This document shows positions 25,415 through 39,797 of a stretch of DNA of 59,936 nt, in pieces. Position 1 is the first letter of the stretch. Each line of letters begins with the position of its first letter. Under the pieces are notes generated by a model that did no database searches, was not told the DNA's origin, and saw only the letters and a list, made by a program, of their open reading frames with translations. This DNA comes from Candidatus Rokuibacteriota bacterium. GTDB lineage: Bacteria; Methylomirabilota; Methylomirabilia; Rokubacteriales; CSP1-6. Location of the stretch: contig VGLJ01000027.1 of assembly GCA_016866775.1 (NCBI GenBank), positions 1-59,936 of the forward strand, read 5' to 3'. The position numbers were made by a program, and so were the translations under genes.

Positions 25415-26569
25415 ATGCGTAGAGTCGCCGTCATCGGCGTCGGCGTCACGAAGTTCGGCAAGCACGATCGCACCTCGGGCGAGCTCTTCGCGGAGGCGGC
25501 CGTCGACGCGCTGGCCGACGCGGAGCTCCCGCCGGGCGCGGTGCAGGCCCTCTATTACGGCAACGTCGTCGGCGGGGAAACGGAGCACCAGCTCCACACC
25601 GGGCCGCAGGCGGCCTCGATCCTCGGCATTCCGACCGTCCCCACGACGCGCTTCGAGACCGCGTGCGCGAGCTCCCACGCCGCGTTCCGCCACGCCGTGA
25701 TGGAGATCGCCGCCGGCGTCTCCGACGTGGTGCTGGTCGGCGGCGGCGAGCGCGTGCTCAACGTGCCGACCGCGGAGTCCACCGAGTACTTCGCGTACGC
25801 GTCCGACGCGAGTTGGGAGCAGCCGCTCGGCCTCACCTTCCCCGGCGTGTTCGCGCTCGTCGCGCGCGCGCACATGGCGAAGTACGGCACGACCGAGGAG
25901 CAGATGGCGGCGGTCGCCGTGAAGAACCACAAGCACGGCACGATGAACCCGAAGGCGCAGTTCCAGAAGGAGATTACGCTCGAGACGGTGATGAAGAGCC
26001 CGTACGTCGCCGACCCGTTGAAGCTCTACGACTGCTGCCCCTTCACCGACGGCGGCGCGGCGATCGTGCTCGCCTCCGAGGACGTCGCGCGCCCGCGACG
26101 GCGCGCCGTGTGGGTGCTCGGCACCGCCGCGGCGTCGGATTCGATGCTGCTCGGCGACAAGAAGGATCTCTCGCGCGTGATGGCGACCGAGCGCGCGGCG
26201 AAGGCCGCCTATCAGCAGGCCGGCAAGAGCCCGTCGGACGTCAACGTCGTGGAGCTGCACGACTGCTTCACGATCGCGGAGATCGTCGCCACCGAAGGGC
26301 TCGGCCTCTTCGAGCCCGGCGCGGGCGGCATCGCGGCCGAGCGCGGCGACACGAGCCTCGGCGGCAAGGTGCCGGTGAATCCATCCGGCGGGCTGAAGTC
26401 CAAGGGCCATCCGATCGGCGCGACGGGCGCGGCGCAGATCGCCGAGATCGTCACGCAGCTCCGCGGCGAGGCCGGACCGCGCCAGGTCGACGGCGCGCGC
26501 ACCGGCCTCACGCACACGCTCGGCGGCAACACCGCGACCGTGCTCGTGAGCCTGTTCGGCCGTGAGTGA
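25415..26569 (+). CDS. thiolase-fold acyl-CoA acetyltransferase
   Basis: 384 residues from ATG 25415, preceded by GGGAGGA. It is a SCP-x/lipid-transfer type thiolase: the active Cys lies in ETACASSHAAFRHAV (near residue 85), with HDCFTIAEI and NPSGGLKSKGHPIGATG towards the C terminus carrying the catalytic His. It overlaps the next gene, a DUF35 protein, by 8 nt; such pairs form complexes that cleave or condense acyl-CoAs, for example in sterol side-chain or fatty-acid metabolism. The substrate is unknown. Confidence 0.92.
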   Translation: MRRVAVIGVGVTKFGKHDRTSGELFAEAAVDALADAELPPGAVQALYYGNVVGGETEHQLHTGPQAASILGIPTVPTTRFETACASSHAAFRHAVMEIAAGVSDVVLVGGGERVLNVPTAESTEYFAYASDASWEQPLGLTFPGVFALVARAHMAKYGTTEEQMAAVAVKNHKHGTMNPKAQFQKEITLETVMKSPYVADPLKLYDCCPFTDGGAAIVLASEDVARPRRRAVWVLGTAAASDSMLLGDKKDLSRVMATERAAKAAYQQAGKSPSDVNVVELHDCFTIAEIVATEGLGLFEPGAGGIAAERGDTSLGGKVPVNPSGGLKSKGHPIGATGAAQIAEIVTQLRGEAGPRQVDGARTGLTHTLGGNTATVLVSLFGRE

Positions 26570-26939
26570 GCCCGTGGTGACGCTGAAGAGCTTCTTCGAG
26601 CAGGCGCGCGAGGGCCGCCTCACCGGCATCAAGTGCGGCGGCTGCGGCGAGATCGCGATTCCGCCCAAGCAGTTCTGCGCGAATTGCGGCGCGCGCGCGT
26701 GGCAGAGCGTGCCGCTCTCCGGCGAGGGCACGCTCGCGAGCTACACCATCATCCGCGTCGCGCCCGCGGGTCACGCCGCCGACGCGCCGTACGCCGTCGG
26801 TGTCGTGAAGCTCAAGGAAGGTGCCGCGATCTTCGGCCGCATCGTCGACGTCCCGTTCGAGAAGCTCGCGGTCGGCCTGGCGCTCCGCTTCCGCCCCATC
26901 GTCGTGAAGGAGCAGACCTCGGTCGGCTTCGCTCCCTGA
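26562..26939 (+). CDS. DUF35 OB-fold / zinc-ribbon partner of the thiolase
   Basis: 125 residues from GTG 26562. The N-terminal rubredoxin-like zinc ribbon has CGGCGEI and CANCGARAW (two CxxC pairs), followed by an OB fold (GEGTLASYTIIRVAP). Known DUF35 proteins bind acyl-CoA and stabilise thiolase-like enzymes. Translational overlap with the upstream thiolase supports a two-protein complex. Confidence 0.92.
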   Translation: MSEPVVTLKSFFEQAREGRLTGIKCGGCGEIAIPPKQFCANCGARAWQSVPLSGEGTLASYTIIRVAPAGHAADAPYAVGVVKLKEGAAIFGRIVDVPFEKLAVGLALRFRPIVVKEQTSVGFAP

Positions 26940-27017: not shown

Positions 27018-27021
27018 AAAG

Positions 27022-27068
27022 TGGAGCGGCCGACCGGATTCGAACCGGCGACGTCCAGCTTGGGAAGC
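27022..27068 (-). pseudogene. 3' half of a split tRNA-Gly(CCC), including CCA
   Basis: Read on the minus strand this gives the anticodon loop TTCCCAA, the 3' anticodon stem, a variable loop, a T arm with the TTCGAAT loop, acceptor strand CGGCCGC, discriminator T and CCA. The sequence before the loop (GTGCAC) does not form a tRNA 5' half. Its acceptor strand pairs perfectly with the 5' half at 36607-36645. Joined at the shared 11-bp core (27058-27068 and 36607-36617) the halves make one 75-nt tRNA-Gly(CCC). Not functional where it stands. Confidence 0.85.
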
Positions 27069-27147
27069 GTGCACGCGCCGTTTTGGGGCTCATGTCCCCG
27101 CATTTCGCGGGTCGTTCACCCCGAGACGACTCGCCGCATGATCCGTA

Positions 27148-27461
27148 GTGACGGCCCGTGGCGACGAGACCGTCGACGAACTGCAGCACAGGTTTCGCCA
27201 CGGCGCGCTCGAGCTCGCCGAGGAGGCCGCGAGACGCGCCCCCCGGCGTGCCGGCTGGGAGCCGAGCGACCTCGACTTCATTGCCACGACGACGTGCACC
27301 GGGCGCCTCACGCCGAGCGTGGATGCGCACCGTGTCGAGCGGCTCACGTGTCGACCGGCGGTCCAGCGCGTCCACGTCGGCGATACCGGCTGGGCGAATG
27401 GGGAGTCATGATCGGCCTCGGCCCGGGGTTCGCGGCGGAAGGCGCGCTTCTGCGGGGCTGA
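27148..27461 (+). pseudogene. type III polyketide synthase (chalcone-synthase family) remnant
   Basis: The first part, ALELAEEAARRAPRRAG then WEPSDLDFIATTTCTGR and VQRVHVGDTG, matches the N-terminal thiolase-like region leading to the active-site loop. The loop (expected GDTGCA) turns into GDTGWANGES and stops. In another frame the next bases encode GVMIGLGPGFAAEGALLRG, the family's last strand, ending at 27461. So roughly 200 middle residues, including the Cys-His-Asn triad, are gone, as are the first 60 or so. An in-frame TGA just upstream of GTG 27148 blocks any longer start. Non-functional remnant at the island edge. Confidence 0.8.
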
Positions 27462-27623
27462 GCATATATCCCTGCCGACCGGCCGCGGGTGTGGCGCAGG
27501 AGACCTGCGGCGCAACCTCTCCCGGGGGAACGGTGAGCCGGGATCGGCCTTTGCCGCGGGCCTCCCGCCATCGACACAAACCCCCGAGCCCAGCAGTCCA
27601 TTCCCGCGAGCGGCCGGGCATCG

Positions 27624-28370
27624 CTACGCCGCCTCCGGCGGACGATGGATCAGCGGACGCATCCGGCTCATCAGCTTCTCCATGCCGTACATCACGAGGC
27701 CCATCTCCCGGCGGAAGTCCGCCGTGGCCTTCGTGCCGCCGCGGCCCACCGCCCCGTCGAACTCTGCCGCTCCGTGAATGAGTGGCACGATGAGGTTCTC
27801 GCGCTCGTCGAGCGTCACCGACGTCCGGTGGGTCTCCTCCAGGCGCAACAGCTCCTCGAGCTTCGCGCGAAGCAGGCGGGCCTGACCCGCCCAGAGCGCG
27901 CGAAACGCCACGATCCCTGCGCTGTTCACGATGTGGATCGAATTCGGCCGCGCGCCGTACGCACGATGCATCGTGCCGTCGAGCGTGTCGACGGCCACCG
28001 CCCACGGAATGTGATCGAGGCGCGCCCAATCATTCGCGTGCCGCATCTTCTGCGCCTCGCTCGTGTGGTGCGGATACCGCTCCCCGGGATGCGCCTCGCG
28101 CACGTGGACCGAGACGAACACCACGCGCTCGCTGAACTCGCGGTGGAGCTGCTTGAGGCCCGGCCGGGCCCCGCGCGTCATCGGTCACGTGATCGAGCCG
28201 ACCTCGATGAGGACCGGCCGGCCGCGGTGTGCGCTCAGGCAAAAGCGGCCGCCATCGATGGTCGGCAAGTCGAAGTCCGGCGCGGGCTCTCCCGGCTTCG
28301 GACCGCCGCCGAAGTGCATGTCCTCCTTCATCATGTGTCTGCGGAAGGTGTCGTAGTTGTACCCATCCAT
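27624..28370 (-). CDS. deiodinase-like thioredoxin-fold selenoprotein (Sec at in-frame TGA 28187-28185)
   Basis: 248 residues if TGA is read as selenocysteine. Start ATG 28370 has GGAGGAG 6 nt upstream. Residues 26-61 are a redoxin start (KPGEPAPDFDLPTIDG...VLIEVGSIT), then U62, PM, and the same frame runs on for 186 codons. The motif GSIT-U-P corresponds to GSCT-U-P of iodothyronine deiodinases. Further matches follow: VSVHVREAHPGE (deiodinase I-EEAHPSDG region) and VDTLDGTMHRAYGARPNSIHIV (VDTM...AYGA...LYVI region). A SECIS-like hairpin follows the TGA. A peroxiredoxin-like or dehalogenating redox role is possible; the substrate is unknown. An ordinary annotation would split it into two short genes. 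The Sec machinery is not in this window. Confidence 0.88.
28155..28172 (-). promoter_or_regulatory. putative bacterial SECIS hairpin
   Basis: Immediately downstream of the in-frame TGA the mRNA can form a 7-bp stem (GGGGCCC with GGGCCUC, one G-U pair) closed by the tetraloop GGCC. The loop begins with G and lies 19 nt after the UGA, inside the 16-37 nt range known for bacterial SECIS elements that bind SelB. The high G+C content makes hairpins common here, so spacing and position carry most of the weight. Confidence 0.6.
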
Positions 28371-28481
28371 GGCTGGCTCCTCCATCAGCACCGGTCATGA
28401 CGATGCCGAATGCATGCCACCTGGTCGAGGATCGGCCTCGACATCTGCGGGAATATTGGAGCCGTGTCTCGGGTTGGCGAC

Positions 28482-29586
28482 ATGACTCATGACGACACGA
28501 TGACCGCCGCGACGCTCGTCACGGGCGCCACCGGGTTCATCGGCCGGCACATCGTGCGCCGCCTCATCGCGGATGGGGCACCCGTGATTGCGTTGGCGCG
28601 CGCACGGAACGGTTCGACCGCCGCGGCGCGCGTGGCCGCGGCGGTCGGGCCCGCGGTCGGCCAGGTCGAGGTGGTGGAGGGCGATCTCGCGCTCCCTGGG
28701 CTCGGCCTGTCTCCGGCAACGCTCGCGCGCCTGCGTCATGACGTCGCGCGTGTCGTCCACTGTGGTGGCGACACGACCTTCGCGCCGCACGCCGTCGACG
28801 CGTTCAAGGCGACGCTCGTCGACGGGCCACTCGAGCTCCTGCGCATGCTCGCTGGCGATCGACTTCGTCGCTGGATCCACATCTCCACGGCGTTCGTGTG
28901 CGGCGCTCGTCACGGTCTCGTGCGTGAAGACGACGGCGACGTCGGCCAGCGCTTCCGCAATACCTATGAGCGGATGAAGCTCGCGTCCGAAGCGGTGCTG
29001 CGGGCCGCGGCGCAAGGAATGGATATCGACCTCCGCATCGTGCGGCCGAGCGTCGTCGTCGGCGCCGGCGCAGCGACACCCGGCGCGCATCCGTCGACCG
29101 TGTTGTTCGGCCTGATCCGAATGACGGCGGCCCTGGCAGGCGCGGCCCTCGCCGCGCCTGCGAGTACGGATCCCCGTCCCACCACACATCCGCTTCAACT
29201 TCATTCCGATCGAGGATGTCGTCCGTGTCGTCGCGGTCCTCGCCGAACACGACGCCGCCGCTGGTGGGACGTTCCACGTGGTGATCCGGAATCCGCCAAC
29301 GCATGAAGAGCTGCGTCGCCTGGCGTGCAGATACTTCGGAGTCTCGGGGATCGAGCTGGTGGACGCGGGCACGCTCGTCGATCCCTCGCCCCTCGAGCGG
29401 GAAGTTGCGTCGTTGCTCGCCCCCTACCGCGACTATCTCGACCACGATGTCGTGTTCGATGACGTGCACCTCCGCCGCGTGCTCACCGTGGCCGGCGAAC
29501 CGGCGCCGTCGCTCGATGACGGCGTGATCCAGTGCCTGATCGCGCACGCCCTCGGGCCCCGACGTGCACGGCGAACCGCCTCGTGA
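28482..29586 (+). pseudogene. NAD-dependent epimerase / acyl-CoA-reductase-like SDR, frameshifted
   Basis: Extended short-chain dehydrogenase. It has the Rossmann motif LVTGATGFIGRHIV, VVHCGGDTTFA, WIHISTAFVCG and the catalytic YERMK. The frame is lost between about 29140 and 29170; the continuation in another frame (IRFNFIPIEDVVRVVAV, then GGTFHVVIRNPPTHEELRR) runs to the stop at 29586. The fold and C-terminal part resemble NAD_binding_4 / thioester-reductase proteins. One indel separates the parts, so it is either a recent pseudogene or an assembly error. Divergent from the selenoprotein gene, 111 bp apart. Confidence 0.75.
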
Positions 29587-30445
29587 TCATTCCCGGTCTG
29601 GACTTGCTTGGTCGCCGCTCCTCGTCGTGCTGCTCGCGCTCTGGGCAGGCGTCGAGGCGGCATTCCCGCTCCGCCGACGCGTGCAGACGCGCGCACGACG
29701 GTGGCGCATCAATGCCGCCATCGCGGCGACGGCGAGCATGGTGATCCGTGGCGTGCAGATCCCTGTCGCCCTGGCGGTGGCGGCCGCCGTCAGCGCGGCG
29801 GGCGTCGGACTCATCGGCTGGATCGGCATCCCCGGGCTTGCGGCCGGCGTTCTGGGCTTCGTCCTCCTCGACTACACGACGTACGTGTGGCATCGCCTCA
29901 ATCATCGCGTCCCGTTCCTCTGGCGGTTCCATCGTGTGCATCACACCGATCTCGACCTCGACGTCACGACCGCCTTCCGCTTCCACTTCGGGGAGCTCGC
30001 GCTCTCGGTGGCGTACCGCGCGGCGCAGGTCGCGATCATCGACGCCGCACCGGTCGCGCTCCTGACGTACGAGATCGTCATGAACGCGGCGACAGAATTT
30101 CATCACAGCAACACAAAGTTGCCGCTCCGCTGGGAACGCCTTCTCAACCTCGCCCTCGTGACCCCGCGCATGCATGGGATCCACCATTCGATCGTCGAGC
30201 GCGAGACGAACGCCAACTGGTCGGTGATCTTTTCGTGGTGGGACCGCCTGCATCGGACGCTGCGTCTCGACGTCCCGCAGGACGCTATCGCGATCGGGCT
30301 GCCCGCCTTCCGCCGCCCGCAGGAGCTGACGTTCCGGCGCTTGATGCTCATGCCGTTCGGTGGGCAGCGCCCCACGTGGCAACTGCCCGACGGCGAGACT
30401 CCCGACCGTTCCCTTCACACAGACCCCCGTCGTTTGGTGGCCTAG
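29564..30445 (+). CDS. sterol desaturase / fatty-acid hydroxylase family protein
   Basis: About 293 residues from GTG 29564, overlapping the previous gene by 23 nt. Several membrane helices surround the histidine clusters of the non-haem di-iron family: HRLNH (near 115), HRVHH (near 124), HHSN (near 181) and HGIHH (near 206). The enzyme would use O2 and electrons to hydroxylate or desaturate a lipid. The upstream reductase remnant suggests a lipid-modifying pair. Appears intact. Confidence 0.85.
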   Translation: MHGEPPRDHSRSGLAWSPLLVVLLALWAGVEAAFPLRRRVQTRARRWRINAAIAATASMVIRGVQIPVALAVAAAVSAAGVGLIGWIGIPGLAAGVLGFVLLDYTTYVWHRLNHRVPFLWRFHRVHHTDLDLDVTTAFRFHFGELALSVAYRAAQVAIIDAAPVALLTYEIVMNAATEFHHSNTKLPLRWERLLNLALVTPRMHGIHHSIVERETNANWSVIFSWWDRLHRTLRLDVPQDAIAIGLPAFRRPQELTFRRLMLMPFGGQRPTWQLPDGETPDRSLHTDPRRLVA

Positions 30446-30606
30446 CGATGCGGCGAGGCCTCACCGCTTTCGCCCTGCCCATCGGCTGATCCCGCAAACG
30501 TTTCGTCGCCTCATTGGATCTGCCGATTTGACTGTGGCGTGAATCCCTATAGTGTGCTGCGTCGTCGCAGCTCAACAGGTTGGACTCGGTTCGCTGAGGT
30601 GATCGA

Positions 30607-31470
30607 ATGCGCCACTCGCTGGTCGCCCTCATCACGCTGTTGCTCGCCGTTCTCGCTCCGCTTGCCGGAGCCGCCTACGTCCCGGACACCTTGAGGGTGT
30701 CCGCGATTCCCGACGAGAACCCGAACGAGTTGATGCGTATCTACACGCCGTTCGCCGAATACCTCGCGAACGAGCTCGGGATAAAGGTGCAATTCACCCC
30801 GGTGGTCGACTATGCCGCGACGGTCGAGGGCCTCGCCGCGCGGAAGCTCGACCTCGTGTGGTACGGCGGCTTCACCTCGGTGCAGGCCGTGCGGCGGACC
30901 GGCGGCGCCGCCCGTCGCCTCGTCCTGCGCCAGGAGGACGCGGAATTCAAGTCGGTGTTCATCAGCCGCCGCGATTCGGCGATCCGCAAGCTCGAGGACC
31001 TCAAGGGCAAGACGTTCGCCTTCGGCTCGGTGTCGTCGACCTCCGGGCATCTCATGCCGCGTTACTTCATGCTGCAGGCGAAGCTGGATCCCGGCCGCGA
31101 CCTCAAGCAGGTCGCGTTCTCCGGCGCGCACGACGCGACGGCGCTCTGGGTCGAGTCGGGCAAGGTGGATGCCGGCGCGCTCAACTTCCTCGTCTGGGAC
31201 AAGCTGGTCCAGCAAAAGAAGATCGACGCCGCGAAGGTCGACGTCTTCTACACGACGCCGCCGTACGCCGACTACTGCTGGACCGTGCGGAGTGACCTCG
31301 ACCGGGCCCTGCAGGACAAGCTGACCGCCGCGTTTCTGAAGCTCGACGCCACGAATCCCCAGCACAAACGACTGCTCGACCTGCATCGCACGACGAAGTA
31401 CATCCGCGCCAACGACGCGGACTGGAAGCCGATCGAGGACGCCGCCGTCTCGGCGGGGCTCCTGAAGTAA
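30607..31470 (+). CDS. PhnD-like ABC substrate-binding protein, selenate/phosphonate-type
   Basis: 287 residues with a signal peptide (LVALITLLLAVLAPLAGA). Body features are LRVSAIPDENPNEL, VQFTPVVDYAATVEGLAARKLDLVWYGGF, FKSVFISRRDS, KTFAFGSVSSTSGHLMPRYF and VAFSGAHDATALW. This is a PhnD-superfamily protein; as I recall it is closest to the family labelled putative selenate ABC transporter binding protein, found with selenium genes, rather than classical PhnD. The ligand may be selenate, phosphite or phosphonate. First gene of a four-gene transporter operon in the same island as a selenoprotein. Confidence 0.85.
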   Translation: MRHSLVALITLLLAVLAPLAGAAYVPDTLRVSAIPDENPNELMRIYTPFAEYLANELGIKVQFTPVVDYAATVEGLAARKLDLVWYGGFTSVQAVRRTGGAARRLVLRQEDAEFKSVFISRRDSAIRKLEDLKGKTFAFGSVSSTSGHLMPRYFMLQAKLDPGRDLKQVAFSGAHDATALWVESGKVDAGALNFLVWDKLVQQKKIDAAKVDVFYTTPPYADYCWTVRSDLDRALQDKLTAAFLKLDATNPQHKRLLDLHRTTKYIRANDADWKPIEDAAVSAGLLK

Positions 31471-31472
31471 CG

Positions 31473-32294
31473 GTGTACGCGCTCTCGGACGTCCGGAAGG
31501 TCTTCGGCAACGACGCGCCGGCCCTCGACGGCGTCTCACTGACGGTCGGGCGCGGCGAGCACGTCGCGTTCATCGGCCCGAGCGGGGCGGGCAAGACGAC
31601 GCTCTTCCGGCTCCTCAACCTGACGCTGCGGCCGACAGCCGGCGTCCTGCTCATCGACGGGGTCGACGTCGCGGCGCTGGACGGCGCGGGATTGCGACGC
31701 GCGCGCCGGCGCATCGGCACGATCTACCAGCAGCACAATCTCGTCGGTCGCCTGCGCGTCGTGCACAACGTTCTCGCCGGCAACCTCGGACGCTGGTCGC
31801 TGTCCACCGCGGTCGCGTCGCTCATGCGGCCGCGCGCCGCCGATGCCGCGCGAGCGCTCGAGCAGGTCGGCATCCCCGAGAAGCTGTGGGCGCGAACCGA
31901 CGAGCTCTCCGGGGGTCAGCAGCAGCGGGTCGCGATCGCGCGGGTGCTCCTTCAGGATCCTGACGTCATCCTCGCCGACGAACCCGTCTCGTCCGTGGAC
32001 CCGTCGCTCGCGCTCACGATCGTGACGCTCCTGCGCGATCTGTCCCACCAGTCCCGGAAGACGTTGCTCGTGAACCTCCACAGCGTCGAGCTGGCCCTCG
32101 GGTATTTCCCGCGCATCGTCGGCGTCCGCGAGGGGCGCATCGCCTTCGATCTCGCCCCCGACGAGGTCACGCCCGAGCTGCTCGGCGCGCTCTACGCCGG
32201 TCACTCGGATGCCACGCGTCAGCTCGACCGGATCCACGATGGCATCGGCTCCTACGGCACCGCCTGCCGCCCGCTTCCCGGCTTCTCCAAGTAG
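31473..32294 (+). CDS. PhnC-like ABC transporter ATPase
   Basis: 273 residues from GTG 31473, 2 bp after the binding protein. Walker A GPSGAGKTT, Q-loop IYQQHNLVGRLRV, signature LSGGQQQRVAIARVLL, Walker B VILADEPVSSVDP, and the H-loop His in VNLHSVELAL. It powers import of the oxyanion bound by the preceding protein. Its 3' end overlaps the permease start by about 56 nt. Confidence 0.94.
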   Translation: MYALSDVRKVFGNDAPALDGVSLTVGRGEHVAFIGPSGAGKTTLFRLLNLTLRPTAGVLLIDGVDVAALDGAGLRRARRRIGTIYQQHNLVGRLRVVHNVLAGNLGRWSLSTAVASLMRPRAADAARALEQVGIPEKLWARTDELSGGQQQRVAIARVLLQDPDVILADEPVSSVDPSLALTIVTLLRDLSHQSRKTLLVNLHSVELALGYFPRIVGVREGRIAFDLAPDEVTPELLGALYAGHSDATRQLDRIHDGIGSYGTACRPLPGFSK

Positions 32295-33105
32295 GGCGCC
32301 CTTCGGCCGGTTCCTCGCCGCCGCCTTCACGGTGGTGCTGGCGATTTCGCTGCGTGAAGCGGGCGTCGACCCGCGCCTGCTCGTGCAGAGCGACGCCGTC
32401 GGGAACGCTGCACGCTTCGTGCGCGGGATGTTCCCGCCCGCGCTCGGGGTGGACTTCCTGGGCCTCCTCGTGCGGCCGGTCATCGAGACGATCCAGATCT
32501 CGCTGATGGGCACCACGATCGCGGTCGTCATCGGCTTTCCGCTCGGGCTCCTGGCCACGGCATCATTGATGTGGCGCGGCGCCCTCCACGAGCGCACGCC
32601 GGTGGCGCGCCGCGCGCTGCTCGGCGGCGTCCCCTACGGCCTCGCCCGCGCGCTCCTCTCCGTGTTCCGCGCGATCCCGGAATACGTGTGGGCGTTCATG
32701 TTCGTGCGCGCCGTGGGGCTCGGACCGTTTCCGGCGGTCCTCGCGCTCGGCGTCGCCTACGGCGGCATGCTCGGGAAGGTCTATTCCGAGATCCTGGAGG
32801 GCGTGGACTCGCGCCCGATCGAGGCGCTGCGCGCCGCCGGCGCATCCCGCGCGGCGATCGTCCTGTACGGACTGGTCCCGTCGGCCCTTCCCCACCTCGT
32901 GTCGTACACGCTCTACCGCTGGGAGTGCGCGATCCGCGCCGCAGCGATCCTCGGGTTCGTGGGCGCCGGGGGCATCGGGCAGCAGCTCGCGCTGAGCATG
33001 CGGATGTTCCAGTTCGACGAGGTCCTAACCGAGCTCGCGGTACTGTTCGCGCTCGTCGCCGCCGTCGACTTCGTCAGTGGCCGCATCCGCGGCCGCCTCG
33101 TGTGA
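32239..33105 (+). CDS. PhnE-like ABC permease 1
   Basis: About 288 residues from ATG 32239 (ATG 32209 is also in frame). Six membrane helices; the EAA loop reads IEALRAAGASRAAIVLYGLVPSALP, and RAIPEYVWAFMFVR and ILGFVGAGGIGQQL are typical of phosphonate-type permeases. The stop overlaps the start of the second permease (TGATG). Confidence 0.92.
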   Translation: MASAPTAPPAARFPASPSRAPFGRFLAAAFTVVLAISLREAGVDPRLLVQSDAVGNAARFVRGMFPPALGVDFLGLLVRPVIETIQISLMGTTIAVVIGFPLGLLATASLMWRGALHERTPVARRALLGGVPYGLARALLSVFRAIPEYVWAFMFVRAVGLGPFPAVLALGVAYGGMLGKVYSEILEGVDSRPIEALRAAGASRAAIVLYGLVPSALPHLVSYTLYRWECAIRAAAILGFVGAGGIGQQLALSMRMFQFDEVLTELAVLFALVAAVDFVSGRIRGRLV

Positions 33106-33953
33106 TGAGCGACACGCGGGCGACCGCCGGTGTCGGAGGAGCGCACTGGGCGTGGTGGACCGTCGCCGGCTTCGCCGCGTTGGTCGCGTGGTCCGCACAC
33201 GGCACTCGCGTGGACGTCGGGGCGCTCCTCGGCGCCGAAGGCCTAGGACAGATGACTGCGTATGTCGCGGGACTGTTCCCACCCGACGTGTCGCCGCCGA
33301 CGCTGCGCGACGCGGCACTCGGGGCGTTCGAGACCTTTGCGATCTCGTTCGTCGGATCGGTGCTGGCCGTGGGGCTCGGGTTCTCGCTCGCGCTGGTCGC
33401 GAGCCGCACCGTGCTCTACCGTGGAATTCTCTACGCGGGCGAGCGGCTCGCTCCGGCCGGGCGCGCGGGTCGAATCGGCATCTACGCGCTGGCCCGCGGC
33501 AGCCTCAACGCGCTGCGGACGATCCCCGAGATCTTGTGGGCGCTGATCTTCGTGTTCATCGTGGGTCTGGGACCGTTTGCGGGCGTGCTCGCCCTCGGCG
33601 TCCACACGGCGGGCGTCCTCGGCAAGCTCTTCGCCGAGGTCATCGAGGACATCGATCCGCGCCCGATCGAAGCCCTGCAGGCGACGGGCGCAAGCCGCCT
33701 TGCGATCATCGTCTACGGCATTCTTCCGCAGGCGGCGCCGCAGTTCCTGTCGTATGCGCTCTACCGCTGGGAGGTGAACATCCGTGCCGCGGCGGTGATG
33801 GGCTTCGTCGGCGCCGGCGGGCTCGGGCAGCGAATCCACGTGGCCATCAGTCTCTTCCACGAGCATCAGCTGCTGACCCTGCTGCTCGCCATCTATGTAA
33901 TCGTGACGGTTGTGGACGCGCTCAGCGCGTATCTGCGTGCGCGGCTGTTGTGA
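33105..33953 (+). CDS. PhnE-like ABC permease 2
   Basis: 282 residues from ATG 33105. The EAA loop IEALQATGASRLAIIVYGILPQAAPQF and VMGFVGAGGLGQRIHVA mirror permease 1, so the transporter is a heterodimer. The first 100 residues differ from permease 1 and contain one extra helix region. Last gene of the operon; no clear terminator before the convergent VKOR-like gene. Confidence 0.92.
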   Translation: MSDTRATAGVGGAHWAWWTVAGFAALVAWSAHGTRVDVGALLGAEGLGQMTAYVAGLFPPDVSPPTLRDAALGAFETFAISFVGSVLAVGLGFSLALVASRTVLYRGILYAGERLAPAGRAGRIGIYALARGSLNALRTIPEILWALIFVFIVGLGPFAGVLALGVHTAGVLGKLFAEVIEDIDPRPIEALQATGASRLAIIVYGILPQAAPQFLSYALYRWEVNIRAAAVMGFVGAGGLGQRIHVAISLFHEHQLLTLLLAIYVIVTVVDALSAYLRARLL

Positions 33954-34535
33954 GCGCGATCCGCCGCTCGCGTGTCTGGCGGAACGTCGTGCGCCGAGCG
34001 GCGCCCGGACCCCGACGGCGCCTGCGGACCCGTTCCGACGACGGCGCAGCAACGACCGAGCAGCTGACACGGCATTCGGGAGCGCGAGCGGAATCATCGC
34101 GAAGTGCGCCGCCGCGCCGACGAGACAGCACGGACACGCGCGCGCCTGACGCCGCGCCATGTCGTAGAGGTAGTTTAGGGCGCCGCCGACGCCGGCGGCG
34201 ACGGCGCCGCCGAGGAGCAGATCGAAGATCGGCCGGCGTCCGCTGCGCTCGCCTCCTCCCGCTCCCGCGAGGACGATCGTGAGGCCGTAGAGCACGAGCC
34301 CGACCGGTCCGTCGGGCACGCCCAGCGCGTACGCCTTGCGCGAGGCGTTCACCTTGTCGGAGTCGAAGATGCGGCCCGGGGGATCGGGCAGGTGCCGGAT
34401 CGCTCCCAGCTGATACAGCGAGATGATCGCGAAGTCGATCGCGCCGACCGCGGCGAGGATCACGATGCCGCGCCGGCGGCGCAGCGCGTCGGACTCGCCA
34501 TGACGGAGCTCGTTGCGAATGGCGTCGGGATCCAT
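33954..34535 (-). CDS. vitamin K epoxide reductase (VKOR)-like membrane protein, 3' end unresolved
   Basis: Start ATG 34535 with AGGAGA 8 nt upstream. Membrane helices (GIVILAAVGAIDFAIISLYQL, VGLVLYGLTIVLAG, LLLGGAVAAGVGG) surround the family pattern LGAIRHLPDPPGRIFDSDKVNASRKAYALG-like, and CPCC fills the place of the redox CxxC near residue 143. Homology ends near 34035; the frame has no stop until 33243, running antisense to permease 2, so the 3' end was probably lost. I cut the feature at the permease stop. VKOR proteins move electrons to thioredoxin-like proteins, so a link to the redox selenoprotein is conceivable. Confidence 0.6.
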
Positions 34536-34567
34536 GACTGGTTCTCCTGTCCCGTGTGTCGGCATGG

Positions 34568-35780
34568 TCAGCGGCCGGGGAGAAGACTGGCGAAGAGATT
34601 GGCGAGCCGCTCGCCGACCGAGGCTGTCAGCGACCACGGGCTCGGCTGGCGCACGACGTGGAGCCGGCCGCGCTGGTCGGTGATGCGGTAGTCCGTCGCG
34701 CCGCTCGCGGTTCGAAAGAAACGCAACGTCACCGCGGCGTCACCGACGCGGAGGTTCTCGAGCGTGATCTCCGGCAGCCACTCAGATGCGGGTCGACGAT
34801 CAGCAGGCGCAGGGGCGCGTATGGATAGAGGCCGAGCAGCGATTGCAGCAAGCAGAAGATGGCCGAGGCCGACCATGCCTGCGGCGCATTGGCCTGCGGA
34901 TAGAGCGCGGGGAACGGATGGGCGCGGTCGCGCGGGTGGCCGCTGAAGACCTCCGGCAGACGATAGAAGTCGAAGAGCGTCGCCGCCTCGAACTGCGCGC
35001 GCGCGATGAGCGCGACGTGGTCCCAGAGGCCATACCGCATGCAGCCGAGCGCGAATGTGCCGTGCTCGACGGGCCACACCGACCCGCGGTGGTAGCTGTA
35101 CGGGTTATACGCCGGGTGCTCGGCCGACAGTGTCCGGATCCCCCAGCCGGAGAAGAGATCGGGTTGGATCAGGCGATCAGCGGTCGCGGCCGCCAGTGCC
35201 ATGTCGGCGATCCCGGTCGCGAGGCAGTGGCCTGGATTCGACGTGATCGAGCGGATCGGGTGCTTCTCCGCGTCGAGGCCGAGCGCGAAGAATCCTCATC
35301 GAAGCCGATGGCGTCCTCGGCAAAGCACGGTTCGGTATCGGATCGCGCGACGCGCACGCGGACGGCGCGGGTGATGCGTGCGATCCCACGATTGTCCTGC
35401 ACGTCGTAGCGATGCGCCGCCTCGTAGCGGAGCGCGAGCTCGAATCCATCGTCGGTCTGCCGCCATGTCCGCTCGAGCTGTCCCGATTGCTGCCGTCCTC
35501 GCCTGACCTCCTCGAAGTCCGCGAAGTCGCCGTCGACCTCGACGGCGAAGCGGAACGCCGTCGGCTGCTGCGAGTAGTTCGTCAGGTCGAGGTCCTCGCG
35601 GACACCTTCGCCGACGTAGCGGGACACGCGGAGCTCGAGGGTCTGCTGCGACGCAGCGTCGACCTGGCCGCTGCCCGTATCCTCCTCGACCGCGACGCCG
35701 GGAGGCACGGTGATGGAGTAGCCGAGCCATGTGTGCTGAGCCGCGTTGCAGGCGACGACCGTCGGATTCAGCGTCGGCAC
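34568..35780 (-). pseudogene. glycogen-debranching-like amylo-alpha-1,6-glucosidase, internally deleted and frameshifted
   Basis: The 5' part (35780 to about 35297) is the N-terminal beta domain (GVREDLDLTNYSQQPTAFRFAVEVDG). It then joins the C-terminal catalytic part in another frame: FFALGLDAEKHPIRS, then PDLFSGWGIRTLS, HPAYNPYSYHRGSVWP and QAWSASAIFCLLQSLLGL. Near 34783 a second shift leads to WLPEITLENLRVGDAAVTLRFFR and the stop at 34568. Several hundred middle residues are missing. The rest matches the GDE_N_bis/MGH1-like glucosidase family. Dead gene. Confidence 0.8.
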
Positions 35781-35781
35781 C

Positions 35782-35949
35782 GTGAGCGATGTCGTCGCCG
35801 ACGTGCGTCGATTCGCGGACGCGGGCGTTCGCCATCTCCTCCTGCGCTTCGCGTCGGCTGATCAGGACGTGGCCATTCGTCGGTGGGCGCCGCTCCTCCG
35901 CGAGGCGCTGGCGGCGGAACTGACGTCACGTCCGCTGCGCGAGGGATGA
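35782..35949 (+). pseudogene. C-terminal fragment of an LLM-class oxidoreductase
   Basis: Some 55 residues (SDVVADVRRFADAGVRHLLLRFASADQDV, then WAPLLREAL) match the last helices of luciferase-like monooxygenases. Upstream the frame runs into the opposite-strand debranching remnant, so the first 250 or more residues are lost. Another trace that this part of the island has been shortened. Confidence 0.65.
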
Positions 35950-36418
35950 AGCGGGCGCACGATGTTTGACCCCCACCAAGATGACAGCCCGGCGCCGGCC
36001 ACGCACGACGGAGGGGCCTCCGCTCCGCCGCACCCGCGAAGGTAGACGGCGGGATGTGTCACAGCCGAGCGTGGCTTCGTGCGGCGAGAAGCGAGGCTCA
36101 TCACCAATAGCGCAGTGAGCCGATTGCACGATGGCGACGCGGCGGCTCGGCAGGCATGATGCGCGCACCGATGACGATGATTCTGGCGCGAGGCGAGCGA
36201 TCAGAGCGCAATGCAGCGGAGTGGCGACCGGGGAGCGGTCTGACCGCCCGTGCCGCCAGAGGATACTCTCCCTCCGGGACGGCATGACGCGATTGACCGA
36301 TCACGGATAGCGCCGCCTTGACGCTCTGCCTTCTCCTCGCCATTCTCGTCCCGTCCTTCGGCGCGCCTTCGACAACGCCGCGACCTGTGGTCTGTAAGAG
36401 ATGACAGGCAGTGAACGA
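35950..36418. other. gene-free stretch of about 470 bp
   Basis: I see no convincing reading frame, RNA gene or repeat here. The short open frames lack family-like sequence and ribosome-binding sites, and codon bias is weaker than in neighbouring genes. It may be eroded sequence at the island end. Confidence 0.5.
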
Positions 36419-36454
36419 AGGGGCCTACGGGGTGGTGATGCCCCGCAGACCCCT
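36419..36454 (-). terminator. hairpin after the intact tRNA-Gly(CCC)
   Basis: Imperfect stem (AGGGG and CUGCGGGG-type arms, two mismatches, 8-nt loop) starting 6 bp beyond the CCA end of the tRNA on the minus strand. Its position matches the hairpin after the split tRNA's 3' half, supporting a terminator role. Confidence 0.5.
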
Positions 36455-36459
36455 CGAAG

Positions 36460-36534
36460 TGGAGCGGGCGACGGGATTCGGACCCGCGACCCTCGGCTTG
36501 GGAAGCCGATGCTCTACCACTGAGCTACGCCCGC
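36460..36534 (-). tRNA. tRNA-Gly(CCC), intact, CCA encoded
   Basis: 75 nt on the minus strand: acceptor GCGGGCG/CGCCCGC, D arm GCTC-AGTGGTA-GAGC, anticodon stem TCGGC/GCCGA with loop TTCCCAA (anticodon CCC), T stem with loop TCCGAAT, discriminator T, CCA. All stems pair, allowing one G-T in the T stem. It reads GGG codons. It lies just inside the island, 73 bp from the 5' half of the split tRNA-Gly, and likely replaces it. Confidence 0.95.
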
Positions 36535-38309: not shown

Positions 38310-39797
38310 CTAGGGGCCGTCCTCGGATGAGTCAAGGTAACGGAGGGCTTCCTCGCGCGTGGCGACGAGTCCGAGCGCCTGCGCCTCGCGCGCTCGCGTC
38401 AGCAGGGCCCCCACGGCGGGACCTGGCGGCAGCGCGAAGCGTGTCATGACATCCTCGCCGCGCAGGAGCGGCGGCGCCGCGCGGGCATCCTGCTGCTCCT
38501 GCCAGCCGGCCATCAGCTCGCGCACCACCCAGCCGCGCTTCCAGGCGACGAACGGCGAGATCCCGGTGACCGCGGCGGCGTCGGCGGTGACGAGCAGCAG
38601 CAGGTCGCGGCTGTCGTCGGCGAGGTCGCGGAAGAACCGATAGCGCGCGCGGGAAGTGATCTCGCCCGATTGCGCGAGATGCATCGGACGCAGGTGGTGG
38701 CGCACGAGCCGCTCGACGCTCGCGACCGCGCGCCCCGGAAGCCGCAGGCGCTCGCCGATCGCCCGCGCGCGCGCGGCGCCTCGCAGGTCGTGCTCGAAGA
38801 ACCGCACGCGGCCGTCGACGAGCCGGCGCGTCTCCGGCTTCGAGACGTCGTGGAGCAGCGTCGCGAGCCGGAGGAGCTGCGCGCGATCGACGCCGCCGCC
38901 GACTTCTTCCGCGAGGTGGGCGCGCAAGTCGTCGGCGATCGCGCCGAGCTTCGTCAGCCCGGTCACGAGCCGGTCCGCGCCGTCCACCGCGCGCAGCGAG
39001 TGCTCGAGGACGTCGAACCGGTGCGGCCGCGGCTGCGCCGTGCGTCGCATCGCTTCGATGTCGGGAACGAGCGCGCCGAGGAGACCGAGCGCGTCGAGAC
39101 GGCGCAGCGCCCTCCCCGCGCGTGGGAGCCCGAGCAGGAGCAGCAGCTCATCGCGCTGCCGCTCCGCCGACACGCGCGTGAGCCCCGGCGCGGCAACCCG
39201 CACCGCGCGCGTGGCGGCGGCGGTCAGCCGGAACCCGAGGGTCGCTTCGAGACGCACGCCGCGGAGCGCGCGCAGCGGATCGTCGGCGAGGGCGGTCGGA
39301 CCGGCCGGCCGCAAGCGCGCGGCGGCGAGGTCGGCGAGGCCGCCGGTGGGATCGATGACGGGCGCGCCGCCATCGCGGAGCAGCGTGCGCAGCGGTACCG
39401 CGAGCGCGTTGACGGTGAAATCGCGCGCCGCGAGATCCTCTTCGAGGGTCGGCGCGCGCCAGTCGGTGACGTCGAGGCGCCCGGCACCGGCGATGACGCG
39501 CGCGGCGCCGCGCTCTTCGTCGAGCACGAGATAGGCGGCGCTCAGGCGATCCGCAACGCGCCGCGCGACGTCGATCGCCCCGCGCGGCACGGTCACGTCG
39601 ACGTCCACGGCCGGGCGCGTCGAAGGCTGCGTCGCCGGCGGCGAATCGCGAGTCCCTCGTCGCGGGGGCGTGAGGCAGGCGTCCCGCACGGCCCCGCCGA
39701 CGAGCACCGCGTCGCGTCCCGCGCCCGCGGCCACGACCGCCCGCAGCAGCGGCAGCGCGCGCGGGTCGAGCGCCGTCAGCGCAAGCCGCTTCGACAT
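38310..39797 (-). CDS. CCA tRNA nucleotidyltransferase / poly(A) polymerase family protein
   Basis: 495 residues. Class II nucleotidyltransferase head with VLVGGAVRD (residues 32-40) and the DVDVT metal motif; between them lies a low-complexity 25-residue insertion rich in Thr, Pro and Arg. Further conserved parts are EEDLAARDFTVNALA, DDPLRALRGVRLEA, and an HD domain (TLLHDVSKPETRR, HHLRPMHLAQ). It repairs tRNA CCA ends or adds poly(A); the HD domain suggests a CCA enzyme with phosphatase activity. Likely essential and intact. Confidence 0.9.
   Translation of the reverse strand: MSKRLALTALDPRALPLLRAVVAAGAGRDAVLVGGAVRDACLTPPRRGTRDSPPATQPSTRPAVDVDVTVPRGAIDVARRVADRLSAAYLVLDEERGAARVIAGAGRLDVTDWRAPTLEEDLAARDFTVNALAVPLRTLLRDGGAPVIDPTGGLADLAAARLRPAGPTALADDPLRALRGVRLEATLGFRLTAAATRAVRVAAPGLTRVSAERQRDELLLLLGLPRAGRALRRLDALGLLGALVPDIEAMRRTAQPRPHRFDVLEHSLRAVDGADRLVTGLTKLGAIADDLRAHLAEEVGGGVDRAQLLRLATLLHDVSKPETRRLVDGRVRFFEHDLRGAARARAIGERLRLPGRAVASVERLVRHHLRPMHLAQSGEITSRARYRFFRDLADDSRDLLLLVTADAAAVTGISPFVAWKRGWVVRELMAGWQEQQDARAAPPLLRGEDVMTRFALPPGPAVGALLTRAREAQALGLVATREEALRYLDSSEDGP

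Follow-up and report, generated by a model that had tools for sequence, protein, structure and literature searches.

The locus poses a question that conventional gene calling hides: does the in-frame TGA on its reverse strand separate two small reading frames, or does it encode selenocysteine (Sec) within a single gene, and what would such an enzyme do? The window, by which we mean the whole 59,936-nt stretch analyzed, comes from contig VGLJ01000027.1 of a Candidatus Rokuibacteriota genome (GCA_016866775.1) that consists of 159 contigs and is 97.5% complete. A binning error for this contig was weighed and rejected on its tetranucleotide composition (r = 0.997 against the rest of the genome) and on flanking genes that are syntenic in relatives.

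Reading frame and selenocysteine codon

Translated with TGA as Sec, positions 28370–27624 of the reverse strand give 248 residues, with a single U at residue 62 (TGA at 28185–28187) in the motif GSIT-U-PMT, followed by 186 residues and a TAG stop. Under the standard code the list of open reading frames holds, for this frame, only a 185-aa ORF starting from the ATG at 28181; as the TGA interrupts the frame, a deiodinase-like selenoprotein escapes standard annotation. An earlier note on this DNA had proposed that the two adjacent frames are one gene, and several features bear this out. A Shine–Dalgarno sequence, GGAGGAG (28377–28383, reverse strand), lies 6 nt ahead of the ATG at 28370, whereas inspection of the sequence ahead of the internal ATG found none; the three codon positions differ in GC in the manner of coding sequence both ahead of the TGA (0.61/0.46/0.89) and past it (0.72/0.47/0.89); and in a comparison with two relatives, most substitutions on either side of it are at third positions. 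The segments that the note had singled out as deiodinase-like, REAHPGE, VDTLDG, AYGARP and IHIV, are all found in the translated product.

The same note had placed the TGA at the Sec position of deiodinases, and the homologues agree. In an alignment of 44 homologous genes, including that of the window, the active-site column contains 31 TGA codons, 10 Cys and 3 Ser, and the Cys homologues, whose alignment at U62 had been named as a check, fall in that very column. The nearest relatives, in which a stop or an unrelated residue would have spoken against the proposal, also have TGA there: the two closest Sec forms, L024 and L025, come from metagenome-assembled genomes (MAGs) of Acidobacteria, are 67% and 62% identical to the window protein and carry TGA at the same codon, and tRNA-Sec is present in the genomes of both. 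The decoding machinery that a selenoprotein demands is complete in the window genome, with selA (592 bits), selB (381 bits) and a tRNA-Sec with the UCA anticodon (70 bits) clustered on a single contig, and selD (336 bits) on a different one. This selD has an in-frame TGA of its own, and a thioredoxin-like protein gene is found about 5 kb from it (contig C31, 19777–19980 and 24695–25639). One Acidobacteria MAG, G095, has four slightly differing tRNA-Sec(UCA) genes (L059, L060, L062 and L064); its deiodinase-like gene shares a contig with two of these, which are separated by 2.1 kb.

A SECIS-like hairpin after the TGA had also been predicted, and one is present: the structure GGGGCCC-GGCC-GGGCCTC (28155–28172, reverse strand) has a G-containing apical loop at 28165–28162, 19 nt past the TGA. 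Taken alone, this hairpin is only moderately unusual, its z-score ranging from -1.7 to -3.1 by the stretch chosen. The Rfam model SECIS_1 (RF00031) found no match in the window genome, nor in any of the control genomes; given its silence in the controls, a comparison of Sec with Cys genes was used in its place. With synonymous-codon resampling, the mean z was -1.54 in the 31 Sec genes against +0.23 in the 10 Cys genes, and the one-sided Mann–Whitney test of Sec genes against the rest gave p = 5e-5, a value that is optimistic since the sequences are related. Most Sec genes have a GG[C/T] apical loop 20–22 nt from the first base of the TGA. The hairpin is thus specific to the Sec genes and not a feature of the Cys genes.

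We regard it as very nearly certain, on these comparative grounds, that the TGA at 28187–28185 encodes selenocysteine. The opposite view, that translation really ends there or that a Cys codon was misassembled, leaving separate frames or a pseudogene, is hardly credible: an ATG two codons past the TGA does allow the call of a 185-aa ORF, but 30 other genes share a TGA in the same column, the changes are third-position-biased on both sides, only the upstream start has a Shine–Dalgarno sequence, and both the SECIS signal and the full Sec machinery are there.

Fold, active site and phylogeny of the family

The search against PF00837 (T4_deiodinase) that the earlier note had proposed came out above the gathering cut-off, at 40.2 bits against 27, with AhpC-TSA ranking second. 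Among NCBIfam models the best was NF038285, "deiodinase family protein", although the 67 bits obtained are far under its cut-off of 250. AlphaFold2, run on a three-sequence alignment, reached a pLDDT of 40; the model was left out of the fold search, and a profile search of the PDB was used instead. There the clade profile ranked DIO3 first (4e-14), followed by DIO2 (4.5e-11) and then ResA (8.5e-8).

The thioredoxin-fold deiodinase/AhpC-TSA domain spans residues 22–158 (27897–28307, reverse strand) and includes S59, T61, U62, E92, H94 and H102. In alignments, S59, T61, E92, H94 and H102 correspond to Ser127, Thr129, Glu160, His162 and His182, the proton relay proposed for Dio2 (PMC11592359); the active-site network of deiodinases, made up of Ser-x-Thr-Sec, Glu-x-His and a distal His, is kept in the window protein, and its Glu-x-His is nearly invariant across the bacterial family in the 44-gene alignment. 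The equivalent of Dio Tyr157 is His89 in the window protein and Tyr in the relatives. The omega-loop (loop D) has a 9-residue deletion relative to DIO3, the distance from H94 to H102 being 8 as against 17 in a profile alignment with 4tr3, and does not reach the full length typical of iodothyronine deiodinases. In place of the Sec-x-x-Cys of the catalogued bacterial family, the window protein, L024 and L025 have UPMT, and the sole other Cys of the window protein, C44, is Arg in both Sec relatives; what is left is a single catalytic residue without a resolving Cys, the pattern of one-Cys or one-Sec peroxiredoxins. C-terminal to the stretch that can be aligned with the catalytic core of the animal enzymes, residues 185–245 (27636–27818, reverse strand) make up a region with the motif IHGAAEFD..RGG..A..DFRREMG; it matched no Pfam family and forms helices in the low-confidence model only.

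The description of the protein as deiodinase-like accordingly holds for fold and active site; for the substrate it does not, the omega-loop being 9 residues shorter than that of DIO3. By sequence, the protein appears to be a relative of the enzymes by which animals activate thyroid hormone, but with a UxxT motif, no other conserved Cys, extra C-terminal sequence and a short omega-loop, thyroid-type deiodination by it is unproven.

The earlier note had called bacterial proteins of this kind rare, which proved too strong. A profile search of 396 genomes from the phylum of one relative, to which further loci were added afterwards, found homologues in 33 of them and the Sec form in at least 24. 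Within the window's own phylum, the profile at a strict cut-off recovered only the window's gene, with none in the other 94 genomes searched; a search of 95 genomes from the window's class with one sequence as query was set aside, as it gave mostly partial matches of ResA/AhpC type. On the tree, about five switches between Sec and Cys are needed, and for four of these well-supported branches leave no alternative. The window clade of three Sec genes groups with four Cys homologues, one of them on a Mycolicibacterium plasmid (support 100/98), and is sister to a clade of the UxxC type (UPFC and UPYC forms, for example L070 and L073). DIO3, on a long branch, groups with bacterial GSYTUPPFRR genes and not with the window clade, a placement that is only suggestive.

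Several other forms were seen within the family. Twelve bacterial selenoprotein genes (L083, L085–L089, L095, L097, L098 and L101–L103) combine GSxTUPPFR with a long DIO-like loop, and several have AHPxDxW; in L103, GSCTUPPF is the same eight residues as in animal DIO3. These genes are candidates for the closest bacterial kin of animal deiodinases. L096, L099 and L100 form one strongly supported clade in which Ser replaces the catalytic Sec or Cys while Glu-x-His is retained, and are possibly non-redox proteins. A divergent Sec clade, L104, L105 and L106, has GCLTUPPF, with Leu for the catalytic Glu and a Cys three residues before the Sec, and in L025 (5998–7257) the selenoprotein appears to be fused to a membrane domain of the DUF1440 type, into which its frame runs on. 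That bacterial GSYTUPPF genes look closer to animal deiodinases than the window gene does makes the origin of the thyroid-hormone deiodinases directly testable.

An inserted segment and its cargo

The gene lies within a segment of about 9.4 kb (27069–36534) that is inserted at a tRNA-Gly(CCC) locus and absent from relatives. In seven relatives the tRNA-Gly(CCC) sits between a ChsH2/DUF35 gene (26562–26936, forward strand, in the window) and the gene for CCA-tRNA nucleotidyltransferase (38313–39794, reverse strand), and the distance between these two flanking genes is 0.2–2.9 kb; in the window it is 11.4 kb. At one end of the segment the 3' half of the native tRNA-Gly(CCC) persists as a 47-nt relic (27019–27068, reverse strand), 100% identical to the same part in G058, G059, G060 and G045, and at the other lies an intact but non-native tRNA-Gly(CCC) (36460–36534, reverse strand), the 3' part of which is 83–85% identical to the relatives' tRNA at this locus. 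An intact tRNA, a displaced 3' half and empty sites in relatives together make up the signature of a tRNA-integrated island. A simple attL/attR model of the junctions fails, however, as neither half of the intact tRNA is native; for the same reason the element appears, from these sequences, to have brought a complete tRNA-Gly(CCC). No integrase was recognized among the ORFs examined between 27 and 36.5 kb, and there was no phage match. At the same tRNA-Gly(CCC) locus, G065 carries a different insert, about 8.6 kb long, with signaling-type ORFs.

Divergent to the selenoprotein gene is one for an NAD-dependent epimerase/thioester-reductase-like protein (28410–29306, forward strand), followed on the same strand by a fatty-acid hydroxylase/sterol desaturase (29564–30445), a homologue of which is also found near the relative's gene in L112. 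Then come, again on the forward strand, a putative selenate ABC transporter substrate-binding protein (TIGR04553, 339 bits against a cut-off of 250; 30607–31470), a PhnC-type ATPase of the same transporter (31473–32294) and two PhnE-type permeases (32209–33105 and 33243–33953). Judged by sequence family, TIGR04553 with PhnC/E/E is a probable importer of selenium oxyanions. On the reverse strand are a VKOR-family membrane protein (33990–34535; PF07884, 51 bits), whose C-terminal end is not fixed, the frame being open to 33243, and a glycogen-debranching-type gene (34729–35777) that is seemingly broken: its middle is missing, and what is left, an N-terminal domain plus a short piece of the C-terminus, is spread over two ORFs. 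The window VKOR is 41% identical to that near the deiodinase-like gene of L025, and in G095 the deiodinase-like gene has homologues of both the VKOR and the fatty-acid hydroxylase within about 10 kb, an arrangement that would fit cargo shared through lateral movement.

Judging by this segment, a selenoprotein gene may pass from one Sec-decoding lineage to another in the company of a probable selenium transporter. That the segment is a transferable selenium package, combining an importer with a deiodinase-fold selenoenzyme that possibly acts on halogenated soil compounds, is a speculative extension that we consider doubtful; if true, the package would provide a Sec-decoding host with selenium as well as with a Sec enzyme that it had lacked.

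Proposed catalysis and comparison with known systems

For the function of the enzyme, the Cys homologues provide a lead. At three Cys-form loci the gene adjoins one for an AhpD-like CMD protein with a CxYC..AH motif, the two genes overlapping in two of the three, on opposite sides, and at the Mycolicibacterium plasmid locus a glutaredoxin gene comes next; the AhpD-like neighbor goes with the Cys homologues, and none was found beside the window's Sec gene. These neighbors imply, by analogy, that the ancestral role may have been that of a thiol-dependent hydroperoxide reductase, and since the window protein has no second conserved Cys or Sec, an outside thiol reductant is implied there too. We propose that SelB and Sec-tRNA insert Sec at U62 and that the Thr/His network activates the selenolate, which would attack an electrophilic substrate, most likely a hydroperoxide, to yield a selenenic form (E-Se-OH). 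An outside thiol carrier, whether glutaredoxin, thioredoxin or an AhpD-like protein, would then reduce this form, in the manner of one-Cys peroxiredoxins and glutathione peroxidases. The gene itself would have arrived on the 9.4-kb segment at tRNA-Gly(CCC), together with the probable selenium-oxyanion importer. Taken as a whole, a one-selenocysteine, thiol-dependent hydroperoxide reductase acquired on an inserted segment is the reading that we find reasonably probable.

Two other activities have to be weighed against it. The enzyme could be a true reductive dehalogenase, its selenolate taking iodine or another halogen from a soil aromatic as the animal deiodinases do from thyroid hormone. The PF00837 score above the cut-off, DIO2 and DIO3 as the nearest solved structures and the retained Ser-x-Thr-Sec and Glu-x-His network speak for this, but the omega-loop, which has a part in recognizing thyronines, is shortened by 9 residues, the animal enzyme, on its long branch, groups with the bacterial GSYTUPPF clade and not with the window clade, and no dehalogenation gene is apparent near the window gene; we hold such a function to be unlikely. 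Nearby VKOR homologues, in the window and in L025, and a fold that resembles ResA/TlpA as well would suit a thiol-disulfide or membrane-linked oxidoreductase exchanging disulfides with VKOR rather than acting on small-molecule peroxides. Such exchange lacks, however, the second residue of CxxC/UxxC (UPMT), the VKOR gene is more than 5 kb away in the window, and by eye no signal peptide or membrane anchor was recognized in the protein, making this role quite improbable. The hydroperoxide reductase remains our preferred reading.

Bacterial deiodinase-like selenoproteins have been described since Zhang, Fomenko and Gladyshev (2005; PMC1088965), and the known family is listed as PF00837 with a UxxC motif (PMC13188914). 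The real novelty here is a UxxT variant of a selenoprotein family already known, in a mobile setting that was not expected: a Sec-bearing enzyme of the deiodinase fold that does without a resolving Cys and occurs in two Acidobacteria MAGs as well as in the window lineage of another phylum. With the catalogued bacterial form it shares the PF00837 match, Sec in the active site, the fold, a bacterial SECIS and relatives that mix Sec and Cys forms; unlike that form it is UxxT, has no resolving Cys and falls in a sister clade. DIO2 and DIO3 (PDB 9h48 and 4tr3) resemble it in the thioredoxin fold, by profile, and in Ser-x-Thr-Sec-Pro, Glu-x-His and the His at position 102, whereas the window protein has the omega-loop 9 residues shorter, an extra C-terminal region, UPMT instead of UPPF and no recognized N-terminal membrane segment. 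NF038285 (347 aa) has the catalytic domain in common with it, at 67 bits, but the score is far under the cut-off and the alignment covers only the last half of the model. The "deiodinase-like protein" of the Mycolicibacterium vanbaalenii plasmid (WP_235881892.1) aligns over 89% of the query at about 35% identity and shares the GSxTxPxT motif and the lack of any further Cys; it differs from the window protein in having Cys for Sec and a C-terminal hydrophobic tail, and its gene, unlike that of the window, adjoins AhpD-like and glutaredoxin genes.
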